Below are positions 36,579 through 52,527 of a DNA stretch of 64,000 bases, piece by piece. Source of the DNA: Tardiphaga sp. 709 (GTDB taxonomy: Bacteria; Pseudomonadota; Alphaproteobacteria; Rhizobiales; Xanthobacteraceae). The stretch covers positions 1,612,001-1,676,000 of the forward strand of contig NZ_CP135529.1 of assembly GCF_032401055.1 (NCBI RefSeq), written 5' to 3'. Below the pieces are notes generated by a model. That model had not been told where the DNA came from and ran no database searches. It saw nothing but the letters and a program-made list of their open reading frames with translations. The translations under genes and the position numbers were made by a program. Positions within the stretch are counted from its first letter, which is position 1. Each line of letters opens with the position of its first letter.

Positions 36579-36920
36579 TCAGTGGCTGATCATCCACGGC
36601 CGCGCTGTCGGGAAGCTCTTGGCGCCCGAGCGGGTCTGCTTCACCAGCCGCGATGGCTTCTTTCCGGAACAGCAGCCGCAACCGGCCCCATGCGACGCCT
36701 TGTACTCCGCCGATGTCTTCGGCGCATTGCGGCTGCGCTCATTGGTGGCGTGGGCCTTGCGCTTGTCGGAGGGCATGCAGAAGAAGGCGGGCGCAGTCAG
36801 GATCACGCGCGGCGCCTGCGTCGCGCAATGCGGACAGTCCTGCGGGTCATCGCATTCGGCCATCGGCCGCATGTCGGTGAAGGGACCGCAATCGTCGCAG
36901 AGATATTCATAGACCGGCAT
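36579..36920 (-). CDS. fmdB: FmdB-family zinc-ribbon protein
   Basis: A 113-residue protein whose first 45 residues form an FmdB zinc ribbon (YEYLCDDCGPF, then CPHCA). The rest is a basic tail with a second cysteine cluster (GCGCC). FmdB is encoded beside formamidase in Methylophilus and was proposed to regulate the fmd operon; its exact role is unsettled. It follows fmdA by 78 bases on the same strand, matching the known gene order. The C-terminal GCGCCSGKK is typical of alphaproteobacterial versions. Confidence 0.87.
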   Translation of the reverse strand: MPVYEYLCDDCGPFTDMRPMAECDDPQDCPHCATQAPRVILTAPAFFCMPSDKRKAHATNERSRNAPKTSAEYKASHGAGCGCCSGKKPSRLVKQTRSGAKSFPTARPWMISH

Positions 36921-36998: not shown

Positions 36999-38228
36999 TT
37001 ACTTGTCCGGCGAGAGCGGCATCTCGATGTCGCCCTTGATGTGCTTGATCGGGCCCGCCGACGACGGATTGATGTCGAAGTCGAAGATCTGCGTCGGCAG
37101 CCACAGCGTGGCGCAGGCATTGGGCACGTCGACGACGCCGGAGATATGGCCCTGCACCGGCGCGGTGCCGAGGATCGAATAGGCCTGCGCGCCGGAATAG
37201 CCGAACTTCTTCAGATATTCGATGGCATTCAGACAGGCCTGGCGATAGGCGATATGCACGTCGAGATAATGCTGCTTGCCTTGCTCGTCGACAGAGATGC
37301 CTTCGAAGATCAGGAAGTCGTTGTAGTTCGGCGTCATCGGCGACGGCTTGAACACCGGGTTCTTGATACCGTATTTCGACACGCCGTCCTTGATGACATC
37401 GACCTTGATGTGCAGCCAGCCGGCCATTTCGATGGCGCCGCAGAAGGTGATTTCGCCGTCGCCCTGCGAAAAGTGCAGGTCGCCCATGGAGAGACCGCCG
37501 CCAGGGACATAGACCGGGAAATAGACTTTCGAGCCGCGCGACAGATCCTTGATGTCGCAATTGCCGCCATGCTCGCGCGGCGGCACCGTGCGCGCGCCTT
37601 CGGCCGCAGCCTTCTCCTTCGCCTCACCCTTCAGCCGACCCATATGGGCAGTCGGGCCGAACGGTGGATTGGCTAGGCCGGGCACACGCTCCGGATTGGT
37701 CGCGATCAGCGCGGTCTCACGCTCGTTCCACGTAGCGAGCAGTTTTGGATCGGGCAGACAGCCGATCAGGCCGGGATGGATCAGACCAGCGAAATTCACG
37801 CCCGGGATGTGGCGCGACGAGGTGTACATGCCCTTGAAGTCCCAGATCGACTTCTGCGCTTCCGGGAAGTGATCAGTCAGGAAACCGCCGCCGTTCTGCT
37901 TGGAGAAGAAACCGTTGAAGCCCCAGAGCGAGTCCTTCATCGGGCCGACATCGAGCAGATCGACCACGAGCAGATCGCCGGGCTCGGCGCCCTTGACGCC
38001 GATCGGGCCGGACAGGAAATGCACGATCGACAGATCGATATCGCGCACGTCGTCAGCGCTGTCATTGTTCTTGATGAAGCCGCCGGTCCAGTCATAGGTC
38101 TCGACGATGAAGTCATCGCCGGGATTGACCCATGCGACCATGGGAATGTCCGAATGCCAGCGGTTGTGAATCATGTCGTTGTCGTAGGCCGATTGCGTAA
38201 GGTCGACCTTGATCAGTGTATCTGGCAT
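36999..38228 (-). CDS. fmdA: formamidase/acetamidase
   Basis: A 409-residue cytoplasmic amidase of the FmdA_AmdA family, close to the usual 400-410. It should hydrolyse formamide or acetamide to ammonia and the carboxylate. Family features include the N-terminal GGDDFIVETYDWTGG-like segment (here PGDDFIVETYDWTGG), VHFLSGPIGVKGAEPGD, GNCDIKDLSRG and MGDLHFSQGDGEI. AAGGGGAGC precedes the ATG. The gene lies 49 bases after urtE, and fmdB follows, so the amide transporter, formamidase and accessory form one transcription unit supplying ammonium. Confidence 0.95.
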   Translation of the reverse strand: MPDTLIKVDLTQSAYDNDMIHNRWHSDIPMVAWVNPGDDFIVETYDWTGGFIKNNDSADDVRDIDLSIVHFLSGPIGVKGAEPGDLLVVDLLDVGPMKDSLWGFNGFFSKQNGGGFLTDHFPEAQKSIWDFKGMYTSSRHIPGVNFAGLIHPGLIGCLPDPKLLATWNERETALIATNPERVPGLANPPFGPTAHMGRLKGEAKEKAAAEGARTVPPREHGGNCDIKDLSRGSKVYFPVYVPGGGLSMGDLHFSQGDGEITFCGAIEMAGWLHIKVDVIKDGVSKYGIKNPVFKPSPMTPNYNDFLIFEGISVDEQGKQHYLDVHIAYRQACLNAIEYLKKFGYSGAQAYSILGTAPVQGHISGVVDVPNACATLWLPTQIFDFDINPSSAGPIKHIKGDIEMPLSPDK

Positions 38229-38277: not shown

Positions 38278-38967
38278 TTAGACGGACAGGTACTTTGCGA
38301 TCTGTGCCGCATCGATACCCTCACGGGCTTCGTCGCGAACAATCTCGCCGTTCTCGATCACCAGCACCCGGTCGGCGACATCGAGCGCGAAGCTCAAGAC
38401 CTGTTCGGAGACGATGATCGACAGGCCCTTGGTGTCGCGGATGTGCTTCAGCGTCCGCGCCATGTCCTTGATGATCGACGGCTGGATGCCTTCGGTCGGC
38501 TCATCGAGCAGCAGCACCTTCGGCTTGGTGGCGAGCGCCCGCGCGATGGCAAGCTGCTGCTGTTGGCCGCCGGAGAGATTGCCGCCGCGGCGGCCTTTCA
38601 TTTCCAGCAGCACCGGAAACAGCTCGTAGAGATCGCCGGGCACTTCCTTCTCGCCGGAGGCGACGAGGCCGGTCTCGATATTCTCCTTCACCGTCATATG
38701 CGAGAAGATCATGCGGCCCTGCGGGACATAAGCGAGGCCCCGCGCGACGCGCTCATAACTCTTGAGCGCGCCGAGCTCCTTGCCTTCCATGGTCACCGAG
38801 CCGGACTTGGTTGGCACGATTCCCATCAGCGATTTCATCAGTGTAGTCTTGCCCATGCCGTTGCGGCCCATGATGGCCACGATTTCGTTGGGCTGCACCG
38901 AGACATTCAGGCCGTGCAGGACTTCGCTCTGGCCGTAAGCGACGTGGAGATCGTTGATCGCGAGCAT
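38278..38967 (-). CDS. urtE: urea/amide ABC transporter ATP-binding protein UrtE
   Basis: A 229-residue ABC ATPase of the branched-chain amino acid/urea group. Walker A is GRNGMGKT, signature LSGGQQQQ, Walker B LLLDEPTEG. The ATG at 38967 is chosen; reading upstream enters a palindromic repeat. It is the last transporter gene, followed by fmdA. Its linkage to fmdA suggests the transported solutes are short amides as well as urea, as in Methylophilus FmdDEF; that is inference. Confidence 0.92.
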   Translation of the reverse strand: MLAINDLHVAYGQSEVLHGLNVSVQPNEIVAIMGRNGMGKTTLMKSLMGIVPTKSGSVTMEGKELGALKSYERVARGLAYVPQGRMIFSHMTVKENIETGLVASGEKEVPGDLYELFPVLLEMKGRRGGNLSGGQQQQLAIARALATKPKVLLLDEPTEGIQPSIIKDMARTLKHIRDTKGLSIIVSEQVLSFALDVADRVLVIENGEIVRDEAREGIDAAQIAKYLSV

Positions 38968-38984
38968 GGCTATTCTCTCTCGGT

Positions 38985-39067
38985 CGTCATTGCGAGCGCA
39001 GCGAAGCAATCCAGACAGCACCGAGCGAAGGCTGGATTGCTTCGTCGCTTCGCTCCTCGCAATGACG
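38985..39067. repeat. inverted repeat, CGTCATTGCGAG / CTCGCAATGACG type
   Basis: Arms CGTCATTGCGAGCG... and its complement end at 38985 and 39067, with inner arms around GAAGCAATCCAG and CTGGATTGCTTC. The element lies between urtD and urtE. A related copy is at 55810-55899. These are mobile-looking palindromes widespread in rhizobia and relatives. In an operon it could attenuate or stabilise RNA. Confidence 0.8.
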
Positions 39068-39097: not shown

Positions 39098-39853
39098 TCA
39101 ATGACCCAGATAGACTTCGATGACCTTGGGATCGTTCTGAACCTTCTCCATGGTGCCTTCGGACAGGATCTGTCCCTGATGCAGCACGGTCACCTTGTGG
39201 GCGATGTCCTCGACGAATTTCATGTCGTGCTCGATCACCAGCACCGAGCGGTTCTTGATGATCGTATTGAGCAGCTCCGCCGTCTTGACGCGCTCGCTCA
39301 CGCTCATGCCGGCGACAGGCTCGTCGAGCATCAGCAGGTCTGGATCCTGAATCAGCAGCATGCCGATCTCGAGCCACTGCTTCTGGCCGTGCGAAAGCAC
39401 ATCGGCATACATGTTGAGACGATCCTTCAGGAAGATCATCTCGGCGACCTCCTCGACGCGCTCGCGCACCGCGGCATCGCGCTTGAACATCAGCGAGCCG
39501 AACACCGAGCGCCCGCGCGGATAGGAGATCTCCAGATTCTCGAACACCGTGAGATCGTCATAAACCGACGGCGTCTGGAATTTGCGGCCGACACCCGCCT
39601 GCACAATCTGGTTTTCCTTCAGCTTGGTCAGTTCCGTGCCACGAAACTGCACGGAGCCTGACGTCGCTTTGGTCTTGCCGCAGATCAGATCGAGGACGGT
39701 GGTCTTGCCGGCGCCGTTGGGCCCGATGATGACGCGGATCTCGTTCTCCTCCACATAGAAGGAGAGATCGTTGACCGCCTTGAAGCCGTCGAAGGAAACA
39801 GTGAGCCCCTCGACCGCGAGCAGAAATTCCTTGGGCTGATGTCCGATGAGCAT
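39098..39853 (-). CDS. urtD: urea/amide ABC transporter ATP-binding protein UrtD
   Basis: A 251-residue ABC ATPase. Walker A is GPNGAGKT, the signature is the variant LSHGQKQW, and Walker B is LLMLDEPVAGM, all usual in UrtD/LivG proteins. AAGGGGAC precedes the ATG. It begins 9 bases after urtC and pairs with UrtE on the two permeases. The His in the signature replaces the usual Gly and is family-typical. Confidence 0.93.
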   Translation of the reverse strand: MLIGHQPKEFLLAVEGLTVSFDGFKAVNDLSFYVEENEIRVIIGPNGAGKTTVLDLICGKTKATSGSVQFRGTELTKLKENQIVQAGVGRKFQTPSVYDDLTVFENLEISYPRGRSVFGSLMFKRDAAVRERVEEVAEMIFLKDRLNMYADVLSHGQKQWLEIGMLLIQDPDLLMLDEPVAGMSVSERVKTAELLNTIIKNRSVLVIEHDMKFVEDIAHKVTVLHQGQILSEGTMEKVQNDPKVIEVYLGH

Positions 39854-39862
39854 GATGTCCCC

Positions 39863-41008
39863 TTACTCGGCCGGTGCGCCGTCAGCGGCGGATTTGATGG
39901 CCCAGGCTTTTCGCGTCTTCGACGTGCGTAGTGCGATCAGGCGATCGACGTGACGCTGCACGTGGTCGCGCCAGATGCCGGACAGGCCATTGGGGAAGAA
40001 CAGCACCACGGCAATGAACAAGCCGCCGAGGCCGAACAGCCAGAGCTCGGGGAAGGATTCCGACAGCATGGTCTTTGCGTAGTTCACCAGCAGCGTGCCG
40101 TAGACCGCACCGAAGATGGACATGCGGCCACCCACGGCCGTGTAGATCACCATCTCGATGGACGGCACGATGCCGACAAAGGACGGCGACATGAAACCGA
40201 TCTGCAGCGTGAACATGGCGCCGCCGATCGCCGCGAACATCGCCGCGGCACAGAAGGCGAAGATCTTGAAATTGGCGACGCTGTAGCCGGAGAAGCGGAC
40301 GCGATCTTCCTGTTCGCGCATCGCCACCAGGATGCGGCCGAGCTTGGTCAGCCGGACGAATTGCGCCGCGATAATGCAGGCAAACAGCACGAACACTTCA
40401 AAGAAGTAGAGGATGACCTTGGCGTGGTCGGTGCGGATGTCCCATCCGTTCAGCGTCCGCAGGTCGGTCATGCCGTTGATGCCGCCGGTATAACCCTGCT
40501 GGCCGATGATCAGGATGGTGGCGATCGCGGCGATGGCCTGGGTGATGATGGCGAAATAGACGCCGCCGACACGACGTTTGAACATCGCGGCACCGATGAT
40601 GAAGGCCAGCAGCGTCGGCACCACGAGGATGGCGATGATGGTCAGCGTCAGCGAGTGAAACGGCTTCCAGAACATCGGCAGCGCCGTGATCTGGTTCCAG
40701 TCCATGAAATCCGGAATGCCGGGCGTCGACTGAATCTTCGTGTTGGCGACGCTGGAGGCTTCCAGCTTCAGGAACATGGCCATGCAGTAGCCGCCGAGGC
40801 CGAAGAACACGCCCTGCCCGAGGCTGAGGATGCCGCCATAACCCCAGCACATCACAAGGCCCAAGGCGACGAAAGCATAGGTCAGATATTTGGCGACGAG
40901 GTTGAGACGAAACACATCGAGAAACAGCGGCAGGATCACCGCGAGCAGCAGCAGCAGCGACAGGAAACCGATCAGCTCCGAGCGGTTGAAGAAGCGTGAA
41001 TTGATCAT
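39863..41008 (-). CDS. urtC: urea/amide ABC transporter permease UrtC
   Basis: A 381-residue inner-membrane permease of the LivM group with about ten hydrophobic segments and the family FGLGGYCMAMFL region. It contains a coupling EAA-like loop near AMREQEDRVRFSGYSVANFK. A 36-base gap separates it from urtB. The C-terminal tail (RDHVQRHVDRLIALRTSKTRKAW) is basic and cytosolic. Confidence 0.93.
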   Translation of the reverse strand: MINSRFFNRSELIGFLSLLLLLAVILPLFLDVFRLNLVAKYLTYAFVALGLVMCWGYGGILSLGQGVFFGLGGYCMAMFLKLEASSVANTKIQSTPGIPDFMDWNQITALPMFWKPFHSLTLTIIAILVVPTLLAFIIGAAMFKRRVGGVYFAIITQAIAAIATILIIGQQGYTGGINGMTDLRTLNGWDIRTDHAKVILYFFEVFVLFACIIAAQFVRLTKLGRILVAMREQEDRVRFSGYSVANFKIFAFCAAAMFAAIGGAMFTLQIGFMSPSFVGIVPSIEMVIYTAVGGRMSIFGAVYGTLLVNYAKTMLSESFPELWLFGLGGLFIAVVLFFPNGLSGIWRDHVQRHVDRLIALRTSKTRKAWAIKSAADGAPAE

Positions 41009-41044: not shown

Positions 41045-41971
41045 TTACTTGCGGACCTTGAGGGCGAACAGGCCCTGCGGCCGGATCATCAGGATCGCGA
41101 CGATGGTGAGCAGCGTCAGCACTTTGGCCATCGAGCCGGACATGAAGAACTCCATGGTCGACTGCGCCTGGGAGATGGTGAAGGCCGAGGCGATGGTGCC
41201 GAACAGGCTGGCCGCGCCGCCGAACACCACGACGAGGAACGTGTCGACGATGTAGAGCTGGCCGGAAGTCGGCCCAGTCGATCCGATCATGGTGAAGGCT
41301 GAGCCGGCGATCCCGGCGATGCCGCAGCCGAGGCCGAAGGTGTAGCGGTCGACCTTCTCGGTATTGATGCCGACAGCGCCCGCCATCACACGGTTCTGCA
41401 CCACGGCGCGAACCTGACGACCCCAACGCGACTTGTACATGATGTAGGCCACCACCATGGTGATCCCCAGCGTCAGCACCATCACGAAGATGCCGTTGAT
41501 CGGCACTTCGATCGTGTCGGTGACCTGCTTGGAGCCCATCATCCATTGCGGCAGTTCGACACCGACTTCACGCGCACCGAACACCGAGCGATAGGCCTGC
41601 TGCAGGATCAGGCTGAGGCCCCAGGTCGCCAGCAGCGTATCGAGCGGACGCTTGTAGAGATGCCGTATCAGCCCCCATTCGACCAACATCCCCAGCGCAC
41701 CGGAGGCGATGAAGGCGAGGATCATGGCGACGAAGAAGTAGCCGGAGAACAGTGACGGCAGATGCGACTGGAAGAAGCTCGACGTCAGCCAAGTAACGTA
41801 GGCGCCGAGGATCATGAATTCACCATGCGCCATGTTGATGACGCCCATCTGGCCGAAGATGATGGCGAGGCCGAGTGCCATCAGCACATAGACCGAAAAC
41901 AGGATCAGGCCGGCAAAGCCCTGCATTGCGAAGATGGCGCCAAGGTCACCAATCGAATAGTCGCCGAACAT
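41045..41971 (-). CDS. urtB: urea/amide ABC transporter permease UrtB
   Basis: A 308-residue LivH-type permease with about eight membrane segments (ALGLAIIFGQMGVINMAHGEF is the diagnostic early segment). It lacks the long N-terminal extracytoplasmic extension seen in some UrtB proteins. A GGAGG precedes the ATG. A 131-base spacer separates it from urtA, within the same operon; it may hold a processing site but no clear hairpin was noted. Confidence 0.93.
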   Translation of the reverse strand: MFGDYSIGDLGAIFAMQGFAGLILFSVYVLMALGLAIIFGQMGVINMAHGEFMILGAYVTWLTSSFFQSHLPSLFSGYFFVAMILAFIASGALGMLVEWGLIRHLYKRPLDTLLATWGLSLILQQAYRSVFGAREVGVELPQWMMGSKQVTDTIEVPINGIFVMVLTLGITMVVAYIMYKSRWGRQVRAVVQNRVMAGAVGINTEKVDRYTFGLGCGIAGIAGSAFTMIGSTGPTSGQLYIVDTFLVVVFGGAASLFGTIASAFTISQAQSTMEFFMSGSMAKVLTLLTIVAILMIRPQGLFALKVRK

Positions 41972-42102: not shown

Positions 42103-43362
42103 TTACTGGTAGCCCTTCGGGAACGGATCCGGCTCGATCAGTTCGGGCGTCTCGAACACCACCTTGAACTGGCCATCGAGCTGCGCCTGGCCGACGCGGG
42201 CCTTGGACCACAGATGGTGGTTCGGATGGATCTTGACGTAGCCTTCCGGCGCCTTGGTGAACTCGATGCCAGCAGAGGCCGCGGCGATCTTGTCGACATC
42301 GAACGAGCCGGCCTTTTCGACCGTCATTTTCCAGAGCCACGGGCCGAGATAGGCAGCCTGCGTCACGTCGCCGATCACGGTCTTCTCGCCCCACATCTTC
42401 TTGAAGGCGGCGACGAATTCCTTGTTGTTCGGATTATCGAGCGACTGGAAGTACTTCATACAGGCATAGGCGCCCGCGATGTTTTCACCACCGATGCCGT
42501 CGATTTCGTCCTCGGTGACCGAGATGGTCAGCATGGTCTGCTTCGACAGGTCGATGCCGGCCGCCTTGAGCTGCTTGTAGAAGGCGACGTTGGAGCCGCC
42601 GACCACCGCGGCATAGATCACGTCGGGCTTGGTCAGCTTGATCTTGTTGATCACCGAGTTGAACTGGGTGTGGCCGAGCGGGAAGTATTCTTCGCCCGAC
42701 ACCTTGCCGCCGAGCTTGCCCTCGATGTGCTTGCGGGCGATCTTCATCGACGTGCGCGGCCAGATATAGTCCGAGCCGATCAGATAGAAGCTCTTGCCGT
42801 TCTTGGTCTTGGAGACCCAGTCGAGGCCGGCGAGGATCTGCTGGGTCGCTTCCTGACCGGTATAGATCACGTTCTTCGACTGCTCGAGACCTTCATAGAA
42901 GGTCGGGTAGTAGAGCATGCCGTTATATTGTTCCATGACCGGCAGCACCGCCTTGCGGGAGGCCGAGGTCCAGCAGCCCATGATGGCAGCGACCTTGTCA
43001 TTGACCAGCAACTTCTTGGCCTTTTCGGCGAAGGTCGGCCAGTCCGAGGCACCGTCTTCCTGGATGAACTTGATCTTGCGGCCGAGCACGCCGCCCATGG
43101 CGTTGATCTGATCGATGGCGAGCTTTTCAGCCTGAACCGAGCCGGTTTCCGAGATGGCCATGGTACCGGTGACCGAGTGCAGGATACCGACGGTGACTTC
43201 CGTATCGGTGACCGCAAGACCGGTGGTGTTGATGGCCGAGGTGGCCGGCGCCTGCGCAAAAGATGTGCGCGGAAGCAGCGACATTGCCGGCAAAGCCGCC
43301 ATGCCCATCAGCAGTTTACGCCGCAATGGCGAGTGCAAGCCCGGTTTCTTCTCGTCTGACAT
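42103..43362 (-). CDS. urtA: urea/amide ABC transporter substrate-binding protein UrtA
   Basis: A 419-residue periplasmic type I binding protein. The N-terminus SPLRRKLLMGMAALPAMSLLPRTSFAQA is a Tat-like signal peptide. The mature part contains VGILHSVTGTMAISE, TFAEKAKKLLVNDKVAAIMGCWTSASRKAVLPVMEQYNGMLYYPTFYEG, characteristic of UrtA/FmdD. The ATG at 43362 is chosen, the longer frame to 43485 entering the regulatory palindrome. It is first in the operon urtABCDE-fmdAB. Divergent from the permease-kinase gene across a 161-base spacer. Confidence 0.94.
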   Translation of the reverse strand: MSDEKKPGLHSPLRRKLLMGMAALPAMSLLPRTSFAQAPATSAINTTGLAVTDTEVTVGILHSVTGTMAISETGSVQAEKLAIDQINAMGGVLGRKIKFIQEDGASDWPTFAEKAKKLLVNDKVAAIMGCWTSASRKAVLPVMEQYNGMLYYPTFYEGLEQSKNVIYTGQEATQQILAGLDWVSKTKNGKSFYLIGSDYIWPRTSMKIARKHIEGKLGGKVSGEEYFPLGHTQFNSVINKIKLTKPDVIYAAVVGGSNVAFYKQLKAAGIDLSKQTMLTISVTEDEIDGIGGENIAGAYACMKYFQSLDNPNNKEFVAAFKKMWGEKTVIGDVTQAAYLGPWLWKMTVEKAGSFDVDKIAAASAGIEFTKAPEGYVKIHPNHHLWSKARVGQAQLDGQFKVVFETPELIEPDPFPKGYQ

Positions 43363-43417
43363 TTCAACCCCACTGGTTCGAGTACGCCTATTGGTGAGGC
43401 AAGCATTGCTGAACTTG

Positions 43418-43458
43418 TGCGGTGCACGGATACGCGAGATCGCGTATACTGCACCGCA
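43418..43458. promoter_or_regulatory. nested palindrome in urtA / permease-kinase intergenic region
   Basis: Outer arms TGCGGTGCA (43418-43426) and TGCACCGCA (43450-43458) enclose inner arms ATACGCGA (43430-43437) and TCGCGTAT (43440-43447). All 17 arm pairs match. A TATACT lies at 43445-43450, a possible -10 element for the kinase gene. The structure is too long and regular for chance and fits a regulator binding as two dimers. A weaker TTTGC/GCAAA inverted repeat is at 43476-43490. Confidence 0.7.
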
Positions 43459-43523
43459 AAATGCCGACGTAGGTTTTTGCATCACGCAAACATGCGTAGT
43501 CGGGTGGGGTCAGGAGCAAAGTA

Positions 43524-46500
43524 GTGGCAGGGCGGCAGCGTATCGACCGCGTGAGACGCCAGTACAATCAATGGGTCGCCAACCAGACCCTGGAGGATTA
43601 CGCACTCCGCTTTACGGCGAAGAGCGCCAGGCGCTGGTCCGCCGCGCGGGTCGCCAATACGGCATTGGGCGCCATTTCGTTTCTCGCCCTTGAGGCCATC
43701 GGCGGCACCATCACCATCAATTACGGCATGACCAACGCCACGGCAGCGATCCTGGTGGTCAGCGTCATCATCTTCTGCTGCGGATTGCCGATCGCGTATT
43801 ATGCCGCAAAATGCGGCATTGATATCGATCTCCTCACCCGCGGTGCCGGTTTCGGCTATATCGGCTCGACTGTTACCTCGCTGATTTATGCGTCTTTCAC
43901 CTTCATCTTCTTCGCCATCGAGGCGGTCATTCTCGCCTCGGCGCTGGAGATGTGTTTCGATATTCCGCGCCCCATCGGCTACCTGATATCGGCCGTGGTC
44001 ATCATCCCGCTGGTGACCCATGGCATCACGCTGATCAGCCGTTTTCAGCTCTGGACCCAGCCGATCTGGCTGGTGCTCAACCTGCTGCCTTTCGCGGCCA
44101 TCGCCTATGCCAGCCGCGACTCCTTCGTGGCCTGGACCAAATTTCCGGGCGACCACGGCAGCGCCGCCGGCCATCTCGATCTCCTGCTGTTTGGCACGGC
44201 CGCTTCAGTCGTATTCTCGCTGGTCGCGCAGATCGGCGAACAGGTCGACTTCCTGCGCTTCCTGCCGCGCGACCGCCGCAGCTCACGTGCGAGCTGGTGG
44301 GTAGCGCTGCTGTGCGCGGGCCCGGGCTGGATCATTGTCGGCGCGATCAAGCTGCTGGCCGGCTCGTTCCTCGCCTATTTCGCACTGACCCACGGCGTTT
44401 CGGCCGAGCACGCCGCCGAACCCGCGCATATGTATCTCGAAGCGTTTCGCTACGTGCTGTCCCAGCCTGATCTGGCGCTGGCACTGACCGGCACCTTCGT
44501 GATCCTGTCGCAGCTCAAGATCAACGTCACCAATGCCTATGCGGGCTCGATCGCCTGGTCGAACTTCTTCTCGCGTCTCACCCACAGCCATCCCGGCCGC
44601 GTCGTCTGGCTGGTGTTCAACGTGCTGGTCGCGCTGCTGCTGATGGAAATCGGCGTCTATAAGGCGCTGGAGCAGACGCTGGCGCTGTATTCCAATGTTG
44701 CGATTGCCTGGGTCGGCGCGCTGGTCGCCGATCTCGTCATCAACAAGCCGCTCGGGCTGCGCCCCCAGCAGATGGAGTTCAAGCGCGCGCATCTCTACGA
44801 CATCAACCCGGTTGGCGTCGGCGCGATGCTGGCAGCAACCGTGATGTCGGTCAGCGCCTTCTATGGCCTGTTCGGCCCGACGGCCAAGGCGCTGTCGCCT
44901 TTCGTCGCTTTGCTGACTGCGCTTGTCACTGCGCCAATCATCGCCTTCGCCACCGGTGGAAAATACTACATCGCCCGCAAGCCGAAGCGCGCTTGGCAGA
45001 ACATGGCGGCGATCCAGTGCTGTATCTGCGAACATTCGTTCGAGCCCGAGGACATGGCGCATTGCCCGGCCTATGCCGGCCCGATCTGCTCACTGTGCTG
45101 CTCGCTCGATGCGCGTTGCCACGATCTCTGCAAGCCGCATGCGCGGATCGACGCCCAGATGTCGGCGACGTTCGGCAAATTGCTGCCGGAGCCGATCCTG
45201 GCCCGGCTCAATTCGCAGCTCGGCCATTATCTTGGCGTGTTCATGATCGCTGCCGGCCTTGTCGGCCTGACGCTGGGACTGATCTATCTGCAGACCTCCG
45301 CCGCATCGCCGGGAGACAGTGCGCAGGTCTCGGAAGTGCTGTGGAAAGTGTTCTTCGCGCTGGCGATCATTATCGGCGTGGTGGCATGGCTATTCGTGCT
45401 GGCCAAGCAAAGCCGTCGCGCGGCGGAAGCCGAAACCAAGCGGCAGACCACGCTGCTGATGCAGGAAATCGACGCGCACAAGCGCACCGATGCAGAACTG
45501 CAGCGCGCCAAGGAAGTCGCCGAATCTGCCAATCTCGCCAAGAGCCGCTATGTGGTCGGCCTGAGCCACGAGCTGCGCTCGCCGCTCAATGCGATATCAG
45601 GCTATGCGCAGCTCCTGGAGCAGGATGACAGTCTGCAGACCCGCCCGCGCGATCAGGTCCGCGTGGTGAAACGAAGCGCCGATCATCTCTCCGGCCTGAT
45701 CGACGGCATTCTGGATATTTCAAAGATCGAGGCGGGGCGCCTGTATCTCTCGCGTGACGAAGTGCGCCTCACCGACTTCCTCGATCAGCTCGTCGGCATG
45801 TTCCGCCTGCAGGCCGCCGCCAAGGGCATCGACTTCGTGTTCCGACGGCCGAACATCCTGCCCACCGTGGTCTATGCCGACGAGAAGCGGTTGCGACAGA
45901 TCCTGATCAACCTGCTCTCCAATGCGATCAAGTTCACCCAACAAGGCAGCGTGCAGTTCGTGATCCATTATCGCAGCCCCGTGGCCGAATTCGAGATCAT
46001 CGATACCGGACCGGGCATCCGGCCCGATGATCTCGAGCTGATCTTCGCGCCGTTCGAGCGCGGCGCGCTTGGCGCAGCACAGCCGCATACGGGCACCGGT
46101 CTGGGCCTCACCATCTCCAAGCTGTTGGCCGGCGTGATGGGCGGCGATATCCGCGTCTCCAGCGAGGTCGGCAACGGCAGCACCTTCCGCGTCAAGATGC
46201 TGCTCTCCGAGGTGACGAACCCCACGCGCATCGCGCCGGTGGACGCGCCGATCTATGGCTATCACGGCGCGCGCAAGACCATCCTCATTACTGACGACGA
46301 TCCGACGCAGCGCGACCTGTTGCGCCAGGTGCTCACACCGCTCGGCTTCATTCTGCTCAGCGCCCCCGATGGACAGGCCTGCCTCAGCCTCGCCCAGCAT
46401 TGCCGGCCCGATCTGTTCCTGCTGGATATTTCCATGGCTGGCATGGACGGCTGGACCGTCGCCGAAAAACTGCGTGCATCCGGCCACCATCAGGCCCGCA

Positions 46501-46898
46501 TCCTGATGGTTTCGGCCAGCGCGCTGGAAGCCCATGGCGCGCCGCTCGCCCAGCCCTTCCATGATGGCTACCTCATGAAGCCGATCGAACTGCCGCGGCT
46601 GCTGGAACAGATCGGACAACTCCTGAAGATCGAATGGCAATACGAACGCGACGAAGTGGCACCTCTGCCGCAATGGACACCGAATAGCGGCACACGGCCG
46701 CCCGTGCATCATGTAGAGGAACTCATTAGCCTCGGGCAGATGGGGCACATTCGCGCCATCCAGTTGAAGCTCGACGAGATCGGCAACGATCACCCCGAAC
46801 ATGCCGACTTTGTCGCGCTGATGCGCTCGCTGATCGATCGCTTCGACCTCGATCAATACATGGCCACCTTGAAGACGCTGTACACCTATGACCACTGA
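43524..46898 (+). CDS. NCS1-type permease fused to hybrid histidine kinase and receiver
   Basis: A 1124-residue transporter-sensor fusion. Residues 1-475 form a cytosine/purine/allantoin permease (NCS1) with about twelve membrane segments. A cysteine-rich module spans 499-536 (Cys499, 500, 502, 514, 522, 525, 526, 532, 536; His504, 513, 533). Two more hydrophobic segments lie at about 562-580 and 610-633. Then HisKA with His682 in LSHELRSPLN, HATPase (NLLSNAIKF, DTGPGI, GTGLGLTI) and a receiver with Asp968. The tail of about 65 residues is helical. The GTG start has AGGAG seven bases upstream. The 3' end overlaps the response regulator by 11 bases. I infer it senses a nitrogenous solute through the permease and controls the divergent urt-fmd operon. 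Similar fusions with SSS-type carriers (CbrA) are known. Confidence 0.9.
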   Translation: MAGRQRIDRVRRQYNQWVANQTLEDYALRFTAKSARRWSAARVANTALGAISFLALEAIGGTITINYGMTNATAAILVVSVIIFCCGLPIAYYAAKCGIDIDLLTRGAGFGYIGSTVTSLIYASFTFIFFAIEAVILASALEMCFDIPRPIGYLISAVVIIPLVTHGITLISRFQLWTQPIWLVLNLLPFAAIAYASRDSFVAWTKFPGDHGSAAGHLDLLLFGTAASVVFSLVAQIGEQVDFLRFLPRDRRSSRASWWVALLCAGPGWIIVGAIKLLAGSFLAYFALTHGVSAEHAAEPAHMYLEAFRYVLSQPDLALALTGTFVILSQLKINVTNAYAGSIAWSNFFSRLTHSHPGRVVWLVFNVLVALLLMEIGVYKALEQTLALYSNVAIAWVGALVADLVINKPLGLRPQQMEFKRAHLYDINPVGVGAMLAATVMSVSAFYGLFGPTAKALSPFVALLTALVTAPIIAFATGGKYYIARKPKRAWQNMAAIQCCICEHSFEPEDMAHCPAYAGPICSLCCSLDARCHDLCKPHARIDAQMSATFGKLLPEPILARLNSQLGHYLGVFMIAAGLVGLTLGLIYLQTSAASPGDSAQVSEVLWKVFFALAIIIGVVAWLFVLAKQSRRAAEAETKRQTTLLMQEIDAHKRTDAELQRAKEVAESANLAKSRYVVGLSHELRSPLNAISGYAQLLEQDDSLQTRPRDQVRVVKRSADHLSGLIDGILDISKIEAGRLYLSRDEVRLTDFLDQLVGMFRLQAAAKGIDFVFRRPNILPTVVYADEKRLRQILINLLSNAIKFTQQGSVQFVIHYRSPVAEFEIIDTGPGIRPDDLELIFAPFERGALGAAQPHTGTGLGLTISKLLAGVMGGDIRVSSEVGNGSTFRVKMLLSEVTNPTRIAPVDAPIYGYHGARKTILITDDDPTQRDLLRQVLTPLGFILLSAPDGQACLSLAQHCRPDLFLLDISMAGMDGWTVAEKLRASGHHQARILMVSASALEAHGAPLAQPFHDGYLMKPIELPRLLEQIGQLLKIEWQYERDEVAPLPQWTPNSGTRPPVHHVEELISLGQMGHIRAIQLKLDEIGNDHPEHADFVALMRSLIDRFDLDQYMATLKTLYTYDH

Positions 46899-47811
46899 CA
46901 ATAAAAAACGCGACGTCGCGCTGGTGGTAGATGACTCGCCGGAAACATTGCGGCTGCTAACTGATGCCTTGGACGGCGCCGGCATGACCGTGATGGTGGC
47001 CATGGACGGCGCCGCCGCAATGCGCATTGTCGAACAGATCACGCCGGACATCATCCTGCTGGATGCCGTCATGCCGGGGATCGACGGCTTCGAAACCTGT
47101 CGCCGGCTGAAGCGCGACGCGGGCCTCGGCGACGTGCCCGTAATCTTCATGACCGGGCTCTCCGAGACCGAACACATCGTGCGCGGCCTTGAGGCCGGCG
47201 GCGTCGATTACGTCACCAAGCCGATCATCATCGAGGAAATGCTGGCGCGCATCCGCGTGCACCTCGCCAATGCGCGGCTCACGCAAAGCGCGCGCACCGC
47301 GCTCGATGTCTCCGGGCGCTTCCTCCTTGCCGTGAGCAACAAGGGCAATATCCTGTGGGCCACACCGCAGGCGCAGAAATTACTCGGCGATCACCTGATC
47401 GCCGCGCCCAATGATGAATTGCTGCTGCCACCAGTCATGATGCAGTGGCTCGAGCAGATGCAGCGGCCGGGCGCCAAGCCGGCACCGTCATCGGGCTTTC
47501 CGAGCAACGAACTGCTGCGTCTGCAATATATGGGGAAAGTCGGCTCCGACGAATTCCTGCTCCGGCTCGCCAAGGAAACCGCGCCAACCGCCCCCGCCGA
47601 GTTCAGCAAGGAGCTGGGCCTCACCGGCCGCGAGGGCGAAGTGCTGTCCTGGCTCAGCAAGGGCAAGAGCAACCGCGATATCGCGCAGATCCTTGGCCTC
47701 AGTCCGCGCACCGTCGACAAGCATCTCGAGCAGATCTACGCCAAACTTGGCGTCGAGAACCGTACCGCGGCTGCGGCAATTGCGGTGAATGCGAGCCACA
47801 GACGGCAATAG
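46888..47811 (+). CDS. LuxR-family response regulator
   Basis: A 307-residue regulator. The N-terminal receiver (1-125) has Asp59 in LLDAVMPGIDGF, acidic pair in VVDDSPE and Lys in YVTKP. A middle region of about 100 residues (130-235) resembles a PAS-like sensor (FLLAVSNKGNILWATPQAQKLL). The C-terminal LuxR helix-turn-helix (about 240-300) has LTGREGEVLSWLSKGKSNRD and TVDKHLEQIYAKLGV. It overlaps the permease-kinase gene, so translation is coupled and they are surely partners. The nested palindrome next to urtA is a candidate target. The middle domain between REC and HTH is unusual for NarL-type proteins. Confidence 0.92.
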   Translation: MTTDNKKRDVALVVDDSPETLRLLTDALDGAGMTVMVAMDGAAAMRIVEQITPDIILLDAVMPGIDGFETCRRLKRDAGLGDVPVIFMTGLSETEHIVRGLEAGGVDYVTKPIIIEEMLARIRVHLANARLTQSARTALDVSGRFLLAVSNKGNILWATPQAQKLLGDHLIAAPNDELLLPPVMMQWLEQMQRPGAKPAPSSGFPSNELLRLQYMGKVGSDEFLLRLAKETAPTAPAEFSKELGLTGREGEVLSWLSKGKSNRDIAQILGLSPRTVDKHLEQIYAKLGVENRTAAAAIAVNASHRRQ

Positions 47812-48007: not shown

Positions 48008-49213
48008 ATGACACGCCAGTTCCTGGTGTGCGCAGCCGCGCTCACGCTTTGGACATCCACCGTCTCCGCTCAGGTCTCCGACGACGTCGTTCGCATCGGT
48101 GTTCTCACCGATCTCTCGAGCTGGGGGCGCGACAATAGCGGCCCCGGTTCGGTCGAAGCCGCGAAGATGGCGCTCGAAGAATTCGGCCCGACGGTGCTCG
48201 GCAAGCCGATCGAAATCATCAGCGCCGATCACCAGATGAAGTCTGACGTCGGCATCCAGATCGCGCGCAACTGGTTCGACGCCGGCAAGGTCGACGCCGT
48301 TGTCGATATCCCGAACTCCGCCATCGCCATCGCGGTTCATAATCTGGCGAAGGACCGCAACAAGATCGCACTGCTATCCGGCCCCGGCGCAAGCACGCTC
48401 ACGGATGAGCTGTGCAGCCCCAACACGGTCCACTTCACCTACGACACCTACGCGCTTGCGAAGGTGACGGCCTCTGCGGTGGTCGCCGGCGGTGGAAAGT
48501 CATGGTTCTTCATCACGGCCGACTACGCCTTCGGCAATCAGCTTGAACAGGACGCGACGCGCTTCATCAAGGCGAGCGGCGGCACCGTGCTGGGCGGCGT
48601 GCGCCATCCGACCAACACCGCCGACTTCTCGTCCTTTGCGCTGCAGGCGCAGAACTCGAAGGCTGAAGTCGTCGCCTTCGCTAATGCCGGCCAGGACACC
48701 GACAATTCGATCAAACAGTCGGGCGAATTCGGCTTGGTCAAAGGCGGCCAGAAACTGGTCGGCCTGCTGATGTTCGACACGGACGTGCATGCCATCGGAC
48801 TGGACGCAGCCCAAGGCACCTACCTCACCACCGCGTCCTACTGGAACATGGATGACAAGACGCGGGCCTGGTCGAAGAAGTTCTTCGAACGCACCAAGGT
48901 GATGCCGACCATGATCCAGACCGGCGTTTATGGCTCGGTGCTGCACTATCTCCAGGCCATCAAGGCTGCCGGCACCGACGATCCGGCCAAGGTAATGGCC
49001 AAGATGCGCGAACTGCCCATCGAGGACACCTTCGTGCATGGCGGCAAACTGCGCGAAGACGGCCGCGTCATCCGCGACATGTATCTGGCCCGCGTGAAGA
49101 AGCCGTCGGAATCCAAAGAGCCTTGGGACTATCTCGACATCGTCAAGACCGTGAAGGGCGATGACGCGTTCCGGCCCATCTCTGAATCTAAATGCCCATT
49201 GCTGAAGAAGTAA
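48008..49213 (+). CDS. branched-chain amino acid/amide-type ABC binding protein (orphan)
   Basis: A 401-residue periplasmic type I binding protein with a signal peptide (about 1-22, ending VSAQV). VRIGVLTDLSSWGRDNSGPGSVEAAKMALEEF and YDTYALAKVTASAVV fit the LivK/aliphatic amide-urea binding group. No permease or ATPase gene accompanies it, so it may feed another LivHMGF-type transporter, possibly urtBCDE. The gene starts an apparent operon with the FAD enzyme (6-base gap) and SDR. The sigma70-type promoter at 47922 and the palindrome half-site lie upstream. Confidence 0.9.
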   Translation: MTRQFLVCAAALTLWTSTVSAQVSDDVVRIGVLTDLSSWGRDNSGPGSVEAAKMALEEFGPTVLGKPIEIISADHQMKSDVGIQIARNWFDAGKVDAVVDIPNSAIAIAVHNLAKDRNKIALLSGPGASTLTDELCSPNTVHFTYDTYALAKVTASAVVAGGGKSWFFITADYAFGNQLEQDATRFIKASGGTVLGGVRHPTNTADFSSFALQAQNSKAEVVAFANAGQDTDNSIKQSGEFGLVKGGQKLVGLLMFDTDVHAIGLDAAQGTYLTTASYWNMDDKTRAWSKKFFERTKVMPTMIQTGVYGSVLHYLQAIKAAGTDDPAKVMAKMRELPIEDTFVHGGKLREDGRVIRDMYLARVKKPSESKEPWDYLDIVKTVKGDDAFRPISESKCPLLKK

Positions 49214-49219
49214 GGTCTC

Positions 49220-50947
49220 ATGGCTGCTGATCCCAAAGCGAATATCGAGCTTTACGAATGCGACGTACTGGTCGCCGGCTCCGGCTGCTCCGGCATGTCG
49301 GCGGCGATCACCGCAAAACATAGCGGGCTCGATGTCCTGATCGTCGAAAAGGAGCCGCGGTTCGGTGGCACGACCGCGCGCTCCGGCGGCTGGCTGTGGA
49401 TCCCCGGCACATCACTGGCGCGCGCCTGGGGCATCAATGAAGGACCTGACGAGGCGCGCACCTATCTGCGCCATGAAGCCGGCAACAGCTTTGACGCCGC
49501 ACGCGTCGATGCGTTTCTCGCCGCAGGGCCGGAGGCAATCGATTTCTTCACCTCCAAGACGGCGGTACGCTTCGACATGCCGCTGACCTTTCCCGATTAC
49601 GATGCGGAGGCGCCCGGCGGCAAGCAGGGCGGCCGTTCCATGGTCGCGCGGCCGTTCGACGGGCGTGAGCTCGGCGACCACATCAAGGATATCGGCGCGC
49701 CGCTGCCCGAACTGACGGTGTTCGGCATCATGCTCGGCTCCGGCAAGGACATCATCCATTTCATGCGCGCGACGAAGTCGCTGACCTCGGCCGTCTATGT
49801 GGCCAAGCGACTGTCTAAGCATTTCCTGAACGTCCTGCGCTATGGTCGTGGCATGACACTGACCAACGGCAACGCCCTCGCCGGCCGGCTCGCCAAATCC
49901 GCCTTCGACCTCAAGATCCCGCTCTGGCTGTCGTCCCCGGTGCGTGAACTGATCATCGAGAACGGCGCGGTCCGCGGTGCCATCGTCGAGCGCAGCGGCA
50001 AGCGCGTCCGCATCTTCGCACGCCGCGGCGTGGTGCTCGCATGCGGCGGCTTCCCGCATGACATCGAACGGCGCAAGGCGATGTTTCCGCATGCGCCGAC
50101 CGGCCGAGAGCACTATTCGCCCGGTCCAACCGGCAATACCGGCGACGGTCTTCGCCTCGCCGAGTCCGCCGGCGGGCGCGTCGAAGATTCACTGCCTAAT
50201 GCCGCTGCCTGGGTGCCGGTCTCGGTCACCCATCGCAAGGACGGCAGCAAGGGCGTGATGCCGCACTTCATCGATCGCGCCAAACCCGGCGTAATCGCCG
50301 TGATGCGCGATGGCGCTCGTTTCGCCAATGAAGGCAATTCCTACCATGCTTTCGTCCAGCAGATGATGAAAGCGGCGAAGCCCGGCGAGGAGATCGCGGC
50401 GTGGCTCGTTTGCGATCACCGCGCGCTGCGCCAATACGGGCTCGGCGCCGTACCGCCGTTTCCGATGCCGATCGGCCAGTATCTGAATTCCGGTTATCTC
50501 ATCAAAGGTAATACGCTCGAGGAGCTCGCGGGCAAGGCCGGCATCGACGCCGGCGGCTTCGTCACCACCATCGCGCAATTCAACAACACCGCCGCCGAAG
50601 GCCGCGATCCCGCCTATGGCAAGGGCTCCCGCGCCTATAACCGCTATCAGGGCGATGCCAACCATGGTCCGAACCCCTGCGTTGCACCCATCGAACAAGG
50701 GCCGTTCTATGCCATCAAGATGGTGATCGGCGATCTCGGCACCTATGCCGGCATCAGGACCGATGCGCAGGCACGCGCACTCGATGCCGGCGGTCAGGTC
50801 ATCAACGGCCTCTATGCGGCCGGCAACGACATGGCGAGCATCATGGGCGGCAATTATCCCGGCGCGGGTATCACGCTTGGCCCCGCGCTCACCTTCGGCT
50901 ATATCGCCGGCCGCCACCTCGCCGGCACACCGGTAAAGGCGGCATGA
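49220..50947 (+). CDS. FAD-dependent oxidoreductase (fumarate reductase/3-ketosteroid dehydrogenase family)
   Basis: A 575-residue flavoprotein. Residues 12-45 contain the FAD-binding GSGCSGMSAAITAKHSGLDVLIVEK, and the C-terminus has GLYAAGNDMASIMGGNYPGAGITLGPALTFGYIAG, the flavin-binding and active-site loop of the FAD_binding_2 group. Such enzymes dehydrogenate or reduce C=C bonds, as in KstD or fumarate reductase. No steroid context is seen, so the substrate is probably the compound bound by the preceding protein. It overlaps the SDR by four bases. Confidence 0.9.
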   Translation: MAADPKANIELYECDVLVAGSGCSGMSAAITAKHSGLDVLIVEKEPRFGGTTARSGGWLWIPGTSLARAWGINEGPDEARTYLRHEAGNSFDAARVDAFLAAGPEAIDFFTSKTAVRFDMPLTFPDYDAEAPGGKQGGRSMVARPFDGRELGDHIKDIGAPLPELTVFGIMLGSGKDIIHFMRATKSLTSAVYVAKRLSKHFLNVLRYGRGMTLTNGNALAGRLAKSAFDLKIPLWLSSPVRELIIENGAVRGAIVERSGKRVRIFARRGVVLACGGFPHDIERRKAMFPHAPTGREHYSPGPTGNTGDGLRLAESAGGRVEDSLPNAAAWVPVSVTHRKDGSKGVMPHFIDRAKPGVIAVMRDGARFANEGNSYHAFVQQMMKAAKPGEEIAAWLVCDHRALRQYGLGAVPPFPMPIGQYLNSGYLIKGNTLEELAGKAGIDAGGFVTTIAQFNNTAAEGRDPAYGKGSRAYNRYQGDANHGPNPCVAPIEQGPFYAIKMVIGDLGTYAGIRTDAQARALDAGGQVINGLYAAGNDMASIMGGNYPGAGITLGPALTFGYIAGRHLAGTPVKAA

Positions 50948-51714
50948 TGGCCAGCTTCGCCCCCGATCTGCTGAAGGGTCAATTGGCGCTTGTAACGGGT
51001 GCTGCCGCTGGCAACGGTCGTGCGATTGCGCTGGGTCTGGCTGCACATGGGGCCGACGTCATCGTGACCGACATCGACCGCGATGGCGCTGCGCAGACGG
51101 CCAGCGAGATCGGAGCAGTTGGACGGCAGTCATGGCATCATCATCTCGATGTCACGGATGTCGATACCTGCCGACAGATCGCACAGACCGTCAAAGCGAG
51201 TGCCGGCGACATCTCGATCCTGATCAACAATGCCGGTATCATCATTCGCGAAGGCATCGATTCCGAACGCGCGGTGGAGAACTGGCGGCGCGTGCTCGAC
51301 GTCAATCTCAATGGCGTCTTCAACGTGACCCACGCCTTCCTGCCCGCCTTGCGCGCGCGGCGCGGCAACGTGATCAATCTTGGCTCCATCGCCTCTTTCG
51401 TTGGGGTCGCCGATACGCTTGGCTATTCGCCTTCCAAGGGCGGCGTGAAGCTTCTGACGCAAGCGTTGGCGCGCGAAGTGGCCAAAGACGGCGTGCGCGT
51501 CAACGCCATTGCGCCGGGCGTGATCGAGACGGCCATGACCGAAGCGACACGCAACGATCCCGCGCGATTGGCCGGCTTCCTCGGCCGCACGCCAATGGGG
51601 CGCGTTGGCCAACCCGATGAGCTGATCGGCCCCGTGGTCTTCCTCGCTTCACCCATGGCGTCCTATGTCACCGGCACAACCTTGCCAGTGGATGGAGGCT
51701 TCCTGGCCGTGTAG
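50944..51714 (+). CDS. short-chain dehydrogenase/reductase
   Basis: A 256-residue SDR with the dinucleotide-binding TGAAAGNGRAIA, NNAG in ILINNAGI and catalytic Ser-Tyr-Lys (Ser in LGSIAS, YSPSK). It should oxidise or reduce an alcohol/ketone using NAD(P). Translation is coupled to the flavoprotein through an ATGA overlap. Probably acts on the same pathway intermediate; the compound is unknown. Confidence 0.92.
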   Translation: MMASFAPDLLKGQLALVTGAAAGNGRAIALGLAAHGADVIVTDIDRDGAAQTASEIGAVGRQSWHHHLDVTDVDTCRQIAQTVKASAGDISILINNAGIIIREGIDSERAVENWRRVLDVNLNGVFNVTHAFLPALRARRGNVINLGSIASFVGVADTLGYSPSKGGVKLLTQALAREVAKDGVRVNAIAPGVIETAMTEATRNDPARLAGFLGRTPMGRVGQPDELIGPVVFLASPMASYVTGTTLPVDGGFLAV

Positions 51715-51741
51715 TGTCCGCGGCACTGGTTTGGGGCAAGC

Positions 51742-52527
51742 ATGGCTAAAGAGAGTCGCGGTATTCAGTCGATCGAGGTCGGGGGTGAATTGCTGCAGGC
51801 GCTGGTGCGCAATGGGGAACCGATGATGCTGCGGGATCTGGCCCGCGAGGCAGGAATGTCACCGGCCAAGGCGCATCCCTATCTCGCCAGTTTCTCCCGC
51901 ATCGGCCTGATTGAGCAGGACCCATCCACCGGCCGCTATGAATTTGGTGCACTCGCCCTCGAGCTCGGCATCGTCACGCTGCGTCGCCTGTCGGCCGTCC
52001 GCGTTGCAACGCCGGCCATCATGGCGCTTGCCGGCACCATCGACCATGCCGTCTCGCTGGCGATCTGGGGCACCCATGGACCGACCGTGGTGCGCATGGA
52101 GGAGCCCAGCCACCCTGTGCACATCGCCATGCGCGTGGGCTCCACGGTGTCGCTGCTCGAGACAGCGACAGGGCGGATATTCGCGGCATTCATGCCACCT
52201 GCGACCATCAATGCCGCGCTCACCGAGGATCTCGATCGGCTCTCGATCGGCTACGATCCGAACCGCGAGATAAAAGGCCCGGCCATCGACAAGATCCTCG
52301 CCGACATCCGCACACGCGGGCTGGCCCGCGCCGTCGGCGAGCCCCTGCGCGGCGTCAACGCATTTTCAGCGCCGGTGTTCGACCATAGCGGCGCGGTGGT
52401 CCTAGCGGTGACTGCCATGGGCGCGGTGGGCACATTCGACGTCAACTGGAACAGCCCGATCGCTAAGGCCCTGCTCGATTGCACCAATGTGATCTCGCGT
52501 CGGCTCGGCCGCGACGTCAAGGACTGA
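51742..52527 (+). CDS. IclR-family transcriptional regulator
   Basis: A 261-residue IclR regulator. Winged helix-turn-helix at about 12-75 (MLRDLAREAGMSPAKAHPYLASFSRIGLIEQ), effector-binding GAF-like domain from about 85 to 255. The gene lies 27 bases after the SDR and closes the operon, so it probably responds to the operon's substrate. The effector-binding lobe has no diagnostic residue I can assign. A 172-base spacer precedes the next ABC gene set. Confidence 0.92.
   Translation: MAKESRGIQSIEVGGELLQALVRNGEPMMLRDLAREAGMSPAKAHPYLASFSRIGLIEQDPSTGRYEFGALALELGIVTLRRLSAVRVATPAIMALAGTIDHAVSLAIWGTHGPTVVRMEEPSHPVHIAMRVGSTVSLLETATGRIFAAFMPPATINAALTEDLDRLSIGYDPNREIKGPAIDKILADIRTRGLARAVGEPLRGVNAFSAPVFDHSGAVVLAVTAMGAVGTFDVNWNSPIAKALLDCTNVISRRLGRDVKD

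Follow-up and report, generated by a model that had tools for sequence, protein, structure and literature searches.

A hybrid histidine kinase with an NCS1-type permease domain as candidate sensor of urea and short-chain amides in Tardiphaga sp. 709

The stretch of DNA analysed here, referred to as the window, comprises 64,000 nt of Tardiphaga sp. 709 (NZ_CP135529.1; all coordinates are window positions). It carries a gene for a 1124-residue protein in which an NCS1-type permease domain, a cysteine-rich (Cys) module and two further helices precede a hybrid histidine kinase. The gene overlaps that of a LuxR-type response regulator and faces urtABCDE–fmdA, a urea/amide transporter and formamidase operon. 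We propose, with a probability of roughly 0.7, that kinase and regulator form a two-component system responding to urea and short-chain amides (formamide and perhaps acetamide) with a sensor derived from an NCS1 permease. The proposal is built on comparison of sequences and draws on (i) the NCS1 kinship of the membrane domain, (ii) the linkage of related fusions to urea and amide genes and (iii) a palindrome and its placing across whole genomes.

Bacterial sensing of urea and formamide seems to be little known; the literature on the Methylophilus fmd genes, in its accessible text, reports induction and names no sensor (PMC10781810). The locus described here offers a candidate sensor, regulator and DNA site together for a urea/amide response. 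It also provides a second case, beside the SLC5 kinases, in which the idea of a transporter domain serving as receptor can be examined.

Domain architecture and NCS1 kinship

The kinase and regulator genes and their domains are as follows.

43524–46898, + strand: hybrid sensor kinase (NCS1, Cys module, two helices, HisKA, HATPase, REC), GTG start, 1124 aa; defined by its open reading frame (ORF), Pfam, a structural model and relatives
43524–44948, + strand: NCS1-type permease domain, residues ~1–475; assigned from standalone relatives and a fold match, without a direct Pfam match
45018–45131, + strand: zinc-ribbon-like Cys module, residues 499–536; conserved Cys residues, metal binding presumed
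45216–45401, + strand: two further helices, residues ~565–626, leading into the kinase; from the model and an alignment, hydrophobic by eye
45540–45737, + strand: HisKA with phospho-acceptor H682; PF00512, residues 673–738, 59.7 bits
45879–46202, + strand: HATPase_c; PF02518, residues 786–893, 90.3 bits
46281–46613, + strand: receiver domain with D968; PF00072 Response_reg, residues 920–1030, 69.6 bits
46888–47811, + strand: response regulator, 307 aa, with REC (D59; PF00072, residues 12–123, 97.1 bits) and LuxR-type GerE (PF00196, residues 245–299, 66.1 bits)

A first-pass annotation of this DNA had described one protein of 1124 residues with HisKA, ATPase and receiver domains, encoded by a gene that overlaps a response regulator gene. 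The ORFs and Pfam agree with this description: all three domains were matched past the permease part, the two ORFs share 11 overlapping bases, and H682 and D968 of the kinase and D59 of the regulator sit within the expected motifs. Residues 1–662 have a 99% match in Tardiphaga robiniae, a close relative of the window genome.

The NCS1 domain that the annotation placed at residues 1–475 is not recognized by direct comparison with PF02133, and its identity instead follows from its relatives and its predicted fold. Pfam returned no match to residues 1–600 of the kinase even at E ≤ 10, and NCBIfam, TIGR00800 included, returned none to the kinase protein. Searched against the Tardiphaga genome, the PF02133 profile matched only a different gene. 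Comparing the window protein, or a profile of 17 rows, with the PDB by sequence gave no NCS1 match. Since direct family matching was negative, we argue the kinship through standalone relatives. Two standalone proteins, L199 of a Klebsiella record and L315 of genome G1095, are 42 and 43% identical, respectively, to the window permease domain and pass PF02133 with 38.1 and 31.5 bits against a cut-off of 23.5; L203 and L316, which belong to the same branch, have no PF02133 match. More distant free-standing proteins (L134, L135 and L136) also pass PF02133; in a search of a small set, they match the window domain with E values between 1e-32 and 4e-23.

A fold comparison points in the same direction. 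An AlphaFold2 model of residues 1–662, built from 26 sequences, has a pLDDT of 67.1 and a pTM of 0.65; this is modest confidence, and the Cys module lies below pLDDT 50. The top five matches of the model in the PDB are Mhp1 and CodB (E = 1e-6 to 2.3e-6, with 15–18% identity), which are free-standing hydantoin and cytosine transporters without a kinase. Other families start at E = 1.9e-4, and SSS-type structures rank below NCS1. The SLC5 and NCS1 folds are both LeuT-like. The SSF membrane domain (PF00474, SLC5) is absent among the Pfam matches of the kinase protein, and residues 475–670 gave only sub-cut-off YebO and DUF4191 matches in Pfam, which may hold no STAC model. Origin of the kinase from an SLC5 kinase of its own genome was considered and rejected, the sole SSF match there being a 504-aa non-fusion frame elsewhere. 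Based on the standalone relatives and the fold, we take the NCS1 kinship of residues 1–475 as established.

Residue conservation was counted over 85 dereplicated fusions, other output types included, and five standalone relatives. The Cys-rich module noticed after the permease domain in the first-pass annotation corresponds to residues C499–C536 and is conserved across the fusions. C499, C502, C522 and C525 are kept in all 85 fusions and in all five standalone relatives; C514, C526, C532 and C536 are kept in all 85 fusions but in only two of the five standalone proteins (L316 and L203). Because Cys residues are retained in standalone relatives, and because the Cys tail forms the protein end in the urease-linked standalone proteins of Klebsiella and Acinetobacter, the module belongs with the permease branch rather than with the kinase. 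The model has helices at 565–594 and 596–661; in the alignment, L198 and L199, both urease-linked standalone proteins, lack the two-helix stretch. Farther along, the position of H682 is a histidine in 83 of the 85 fusions and that of D968 an aspartate in 80.

Within the permease domain, the polar residues E133, Q236, E239, Q240, K332, N334 and N337 are identical in every fusion and every standalone relative compared. A ligand-binding site is therefore probably kept between the two groups. In a by-eye comparison with the Mhp1 sequence, K332–I333 falls near the sodium-binding Ser/Thr pair of that transporter; the permease branch may operate without sodium.

Gene neighbourhood and the candidate ligand

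The region upstream of the kinase gene contains the following features.

43431–43446, no strand assigned: palindrome TACGCGAGATCGCGTA in the gap separating urtA from the kinase gene, a predicted site of the regulator; kept in relatives
42103–43485 (ORF as listed), − strand: urtA; TIGR03407, 543.5 bits against a cut-off of 492.75, likely ATG start at 43362
41045–41971, − strand: urtB; TIGR03409, above cut-off
39863–41008, − strand: urtC; TIGR03408, above cut-off
39098–39853, − strand: urtD; TIGR03411, above cut-off
38278–39021, − strand: urtE; TIGR03410, above cut-off
36999–38228, − strand: fmdA, formamidase; NF045496, 768.4 bits against a cut-off of 500
36579–36920, − strand: fmdB-like zinc ribbon protein; 55% identity to the zinc ribbon protein adjoining fmdA in Azospirillum (L196)

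The kinase thus faces a urea/amide transporter and formamidase operon, as first annotated, with the fmdB-like gene in addition. The gap between the likely urtA ATG and the kinase start measures 161 bases, and a scan of this gap for sigma-70 promoters and terminators found none.

To what extent is this arrangement shared? Our genome collection holds at least 584 related stretches, 80 of which were used as loci L032–L111. The linkage sample of 161 loci (L032–L111, L144–L204 and L315–L334) yielded 140 fusion entries that were ≥800 residues long and had 7 kb of sequence upstream, and these were collapsed at 75% identity into 53 clusters, after which L032–L111, being close kin, carry little weight. 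A few of the sampled stretches were selected for having a standalone NCS1 protein or a second fusion. At least one of urtA, fmdA, amiE and ureC lies within 9 kb in 136 of the 140 entries and 49 of the 53 clusters; gene by gene, the clusters number 41 for urtA (28 at ≥60% identity), 30 for fmdA, 13 for amiE and 7 for ureC. The pairing with a LuxR-type regulator recurs in 47 of the 53 clusters. Divergence, which the first-pass annotation expected to find conserved in relatives, is also widespread: urtA, fmdA, ureC or a standalone NCS1 gene lies upstream on the opposite strand in 43 clusters, and in 40 the fusion is faced, at a distance of no more than 1 kb, by urtA, fmdA, ureA, ureD or a standalone NCS1 gene.

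The gene contexts differ among taxa. Azospirillum and Methylobacterium have urtABCDE–fmdA and the zinc ribbon gene, with an aliphatic amidase nearby; Sphingobium and G338 (L327) have urt with urease genes, and G1172 (L325) has urt followed by at least ureD. Urease faces the fusion at L148, L166, L187 and L188, with no urt gene in the fetched stretch. Methylovirgula has fmdA–fmdB and an amidase without urt, and a standalone NCS1–Cys protein downstream of the regulator. In the one fusion-bearing plasmid that was opened, from Klebsiella (L349), fusion and regulator adjoin urtABCDE–amiF, the last being the name given there to a formamidase gene.

The standalone NCS1–Cys proteins keep similar company. 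They end the ureDABCEFG genes in a Klebsiella record (L199:8941–10548) and in G1095 (L315:8107–9672), and in Acinetobacter one precedes the urease genes (L198:5663–7270). In the two annotated records, these urease-linked proteins are named allantoin or cytosine permease; they are likely urea permeases that have been misnamed. At G1081 (L316), a standalone protein heads an NCS1–fmdA–fmdB–amiE run that faces the fusion and takes the place of urtABCDE, and the palindrome is also found there. This exchange of an NCS1 protein for urtABCDE gives the best hint that the ligand is urea and short-chain amides, the substrate to which the varied contexts also appear to point. For urtABCDE adjoining formamidase, uptake of formamide has been suggested by others (PMC13209695, in its accessible text).

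The first-pass annotation had left the solute as a nucleobase, allantoin or an amide-like compound. The contexts and the standalone relatives favor the last of these and add urea to it, whereas a nucleobase or allantoin found no support, the genes of those pathways not having been sought around the fusions. The usual NCS1 substrates (nucleobases, hydantoins or allantoin) would be natural ligands given the family membership and the names of the standalone relatives, with urt–fmd then serving as a general nitrogen-scavenging set. We regard this explanation as most improbable and have set it aside, because the relatives so named, like the L315 protein, sit with urease operons, and because a urea, formamide or amidase context surrounds the 49 clusters counted above, though only these genes were sought.

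The tight linkage to urtA, present in 41 of the 53 clusters, could alternatively mean that the sensor reads UrtA or the ABC transporter in the manner of a trigger transporter and binds no substrate of its own. Such an arrangement is very improbable given the fusions that lie with urease or fmdA and have no urt genes in the fetched stretch (L148, L166, L187, L188, L203 and L316). A sensor dependent on urtABCDE was set aside for the same reason, namely that fusions exist without these genes.

A palindrome before urtA, fmdA and amiE

The window palindrome TACGCGAGATCGCGTA matches TACGCRAGATCRCGTA exactly, and the Tardiphaga genome has no second exact match. In relatives the palindrome takes the form TACGTCRNNTGACGTA, and many loci have it in the interval separating urtA from the kinase gene. 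The window holds two copies of TACGN8CGTA, where 0.19 would be expected. The first form of the motif was found in 65 of 179 loci at ≤3 mismatches and was widened to TACGYN6RCGTA after viewing the sequences. Since this was done on the same loci, the per-locus counts are partly fitted: TACGYN6RCGTA lies near the start of the kinase gene, urtA or fmdA in 96 of 127 loci, against 2 matches in 2384 kb of background, and in 29 of the 53 clusters, against 2 matches in 938 kb.

Better controls are provided by the genome-wide placing of the palindrome and by 38 kinase-free genomes. TACGTYRNNTRACGTA is present in 21 of 26 fusion-bearing genomes, at 24 distinct sites. Eighteen of these adjoin urtA, three fmdA and one amiE, and the remaining two (L211 and L221) adjoin none of the genes sought; they are possibly further members of the regulon or chance occurrences. 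Only 1 of the 38 genomes without a fusion match contains TACGTYRNNTRACGTA. With the pattern reversed as a control, the 26 genomes had 8 strand hits and the 38 had 12, and the background is therefore similar in both sets. The 38 kinase-free genomes all come from the order or family of the window genome and 13 of the 26 kinase-bearing genomes come from outside it, and this closer kinship, together with the fitting of the motif, lessens the contrast without undoing it. When urtA lies apart from the kinase gene (L177, L190 and L191), the site stays with urtA. Regulation of urt–fmd by the two-component system, as claimed at first pass, is in this way borne out indirectly, through sites that lie mostly at urtA, fmdA and amiE.

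Sites at such promoters would be expected for any regulator of these genes, and the palindrome could belong to a different nitrogen regulator of urtA, fmdA and amiE while the co-encoded LuxR-type protein acts elsewhere. We consider this improbable. The palindrome follows the kinase, being found in 21 of 26 kinase-bearing genomes and 1 of 38 kinase-free ones, and it lies upstream of the kinase gene itself in many loci. The dyad form also suits LuxR-type regulators; the CrbR site, as given in the accessible text, is an imperfect inverted repeat (PMC5715377).

Signalling model, known systems and distribution

By analogy with CrbS/R and RpuS/R, as these are described in the accessible text of two reports (PMC5715377, PMC9100948), we propose the following mechanism. 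An NCS1 permease with a C-terminal Cys tail would be coupled by the two extra helices to the hybrid histidine kinase, and urea or formamide, bound in or passing through the NCS1 domain, would alter kinase activity. Phosphate would pass from H682 to D59 of the co-encoded regulator, with or without D968 as an intermediate. The regulator would in turn occupy TACGYN6RCGTA before urtA, fmdA or amiE and, acting as an activator rather than a repressor, switch on uptake and hydrolysis.

The NCS1 domain might instead be a working urea/amide permease that transports or merely anchors, with sensing carried out in the cytoplasm (nitrogen state, ammonia or formate), as has been proposed for CbrA. The accessible reports on CbrA offer a precedent: the protein transports histidine, and its kinase activities neither respond to histidine nor need the SLC5 domain (PMC7096432, PMC9100948). 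By this analogy, a permease-type sensor domain may transport without signalling, and the possible ligand residues common to the fusions and the standalone permeases suggest that transport may indeed be kept. However, the window protein has no PAS or GAF match in Pfam, unlike CbrA with its PAS domain (PMC7096432, accessible text). The NCS1 module also remains constant while the outputs vary (kinase with or without REC, and PAS-GGDEF-EAL), as would fit a sensory part, and the adjoining urtABCDE would already import the substrates of a tethered permease. We therefore consider cytoplasmic sensing unlikely and favor ligand sensing by the NCS1 domain.

Several observations weigh against the proposed urea/amide system. 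To the absence of a direct Pfam match, the modest confidence of the structural model and the CbrA precedent must be added (i) clusters L317, L318, L319 and L320, which have none of urtA, fmdA, amiE and ureC nearby; (ii) the strict palindrome, which is missing from the scanned regions of 24 of the 53 clusters (including L110, L167, L181, L182 and a branch of 890-aa fusions) and from the gap of all six urease-facing loci (L148, L162, L166, L173, L187 and L188); (iii) five of the 26 kinase-bearing genomes, which lack an exact site; (iv) the Tardiphaga genome itself, where the window form of the palindrome, with ≤2 mismatches allowed, has 17 strand hits and its reversed control 18, so that only the exact site is distinct, and (v) an unsure root of the NCS1 tree, in which outgroup end branches reach up to 10 changes per column. 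Some other loci carry sites with one or two mismatches.

Permease–kinase fusions of the SLC5/STAC type are known already; the NCS1 type is apparently new, as the first-pass annotation had supposed, in that we found no description of an NCS1–kinase fusion in the open-licence PMC literature, where the longest result lists were judged by their top titles. The comparisons that follow draw on the accessible text of each report. CrbS/CrbR resembles the window system in having a transporter-type membrane domain on a hybrid kinase, a LuxR-type partner and an inverted-repeat site before transport and catabolic genes (PMC5715377, PMC9100948), but it combines SLC5 with a STAC linker and responds to acetate, whereas the window system has NCS1, the Cys module and two helices and lies with urea/amide genes. 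In RpuS/RpuR of Sinorhizobium fredii, a sensor of similar build controls a neighbouring transporter gene; there the sensor is of the SLC5/STAC type, the target is the pyruvate symporter MctP and the site is an imperfect direct repeat (PMC9100948). CbrA/CbrB shares the fusion of permease and kinase (SLC5/STAC), with transport by the permease part demonstrated, but it differs in its substrate histidine, its PAS domain and the lack of a significant ligand effect on the kinase (PMC7096432).

On the side of the target genes, the fmd cluster of Methylophilus methylotrophus likewise joins formamidase to short-chain amide/urea transport and is induced by formamide and urea, but the account available names a putative positive regulator only and no sensor kinase (PMC10781810). 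The urtABCDE operon III of Ectopseudomonas guguanensis G3 has a LuxR-family two-component regulator and a hybrid histidine kinase in a figure legend, and the accessible text mentions neither an NCS1 or permease domain nor a test of the regulator (PMC13296017). The UTS (Urt/AmiF) cluster of Klebsiella CG307 is treated in a preprint whose accessible part names no regulator or NCS1 domain (PMC13060141); the Klebsiella plasmid with urtABCDE–amiF (L349), which may be compared with it, carries the fusion and the regulator.

The fusion class is common. Of 199 genomes of the order, 48 have a match to residues 1–662 at E ≤ 1e-3, strong in 45 and only weak in the other three; in the phylum, 61 of 398 genomes have a match at this threshold, some of them weak. 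Among 72,556 plasmid records, 534 match the sensor part and 506 cover at least 80% of the query; Klebsiella accounts for 342 of the 534. A few of the plasmid matches are standalone permeases. The class may have escaped notice because neither Pfam nor NCBIfam recognizes the permease domain and the records read ‘ATP-binding protein’ or ‘hybrid sensor histidine kinase’.

The outputs attached to the sensor are not uniform. Pfam identifies PAS-GGDEF-EAL joined to the permease–Cys unit at L317:6852–10520, where the sensor may feed turnover of cyclic di-GMP, PAS-PAS-kinase-receiver at L318 and a kinase without receiver at L320 and L144. L144 belongs with L145, L146 and L147 to a second fusion type of ~890 residues and ~50% identity, in which fmdA lies ~2 kb downstream and the palindrome was not found; the receiver is missing in L144.

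Close standalone relatives are rare, with two in 369 genomes of the class of G531; among the 398 phylum genomes and 293 genomes of the order of G531, none was found beyond fusions, one cut contig and distant proteins. In a tree built after removal of a cut contig (L326), all five standalone proteins group as a single clade (SH-aLRT 97) next to two fusions of G961 (97), and this group is set apart from the 80 other rows (99). With its very long outgroup branches, the tree favors neither a permease-to-sensor nor a sensor-to-permease direction. We see about even odds that the NCS1–Cys–two-helix unit acts as a portable membrane receptor of urea and formamide that arose from, or gave rise to, a urea/amide permease, and that it serves at least four outputs in Pseudomonadota (the hybrid kinase, a kinase lacking the receiver, PAS-kinase-receiver and PAS-GGDEF-EAL). 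It would then constitute a second independent line from transporter to receptor beside SLC5/STAC, with the standalone cousins as a urea/amide branch of NCS1.

On the 3′ side of the regulator gene, the window continues at 48008–52527 with genes that Pfam assigns to a Peripla_BP_6 periplasmic binding protein, an FAD-binding oxidoreductase, an SDR enzyme and an IclR regulator. The FAD-binding oxidoreductase gene has a counterpart in only 2 of the 80 loci L032–L111.

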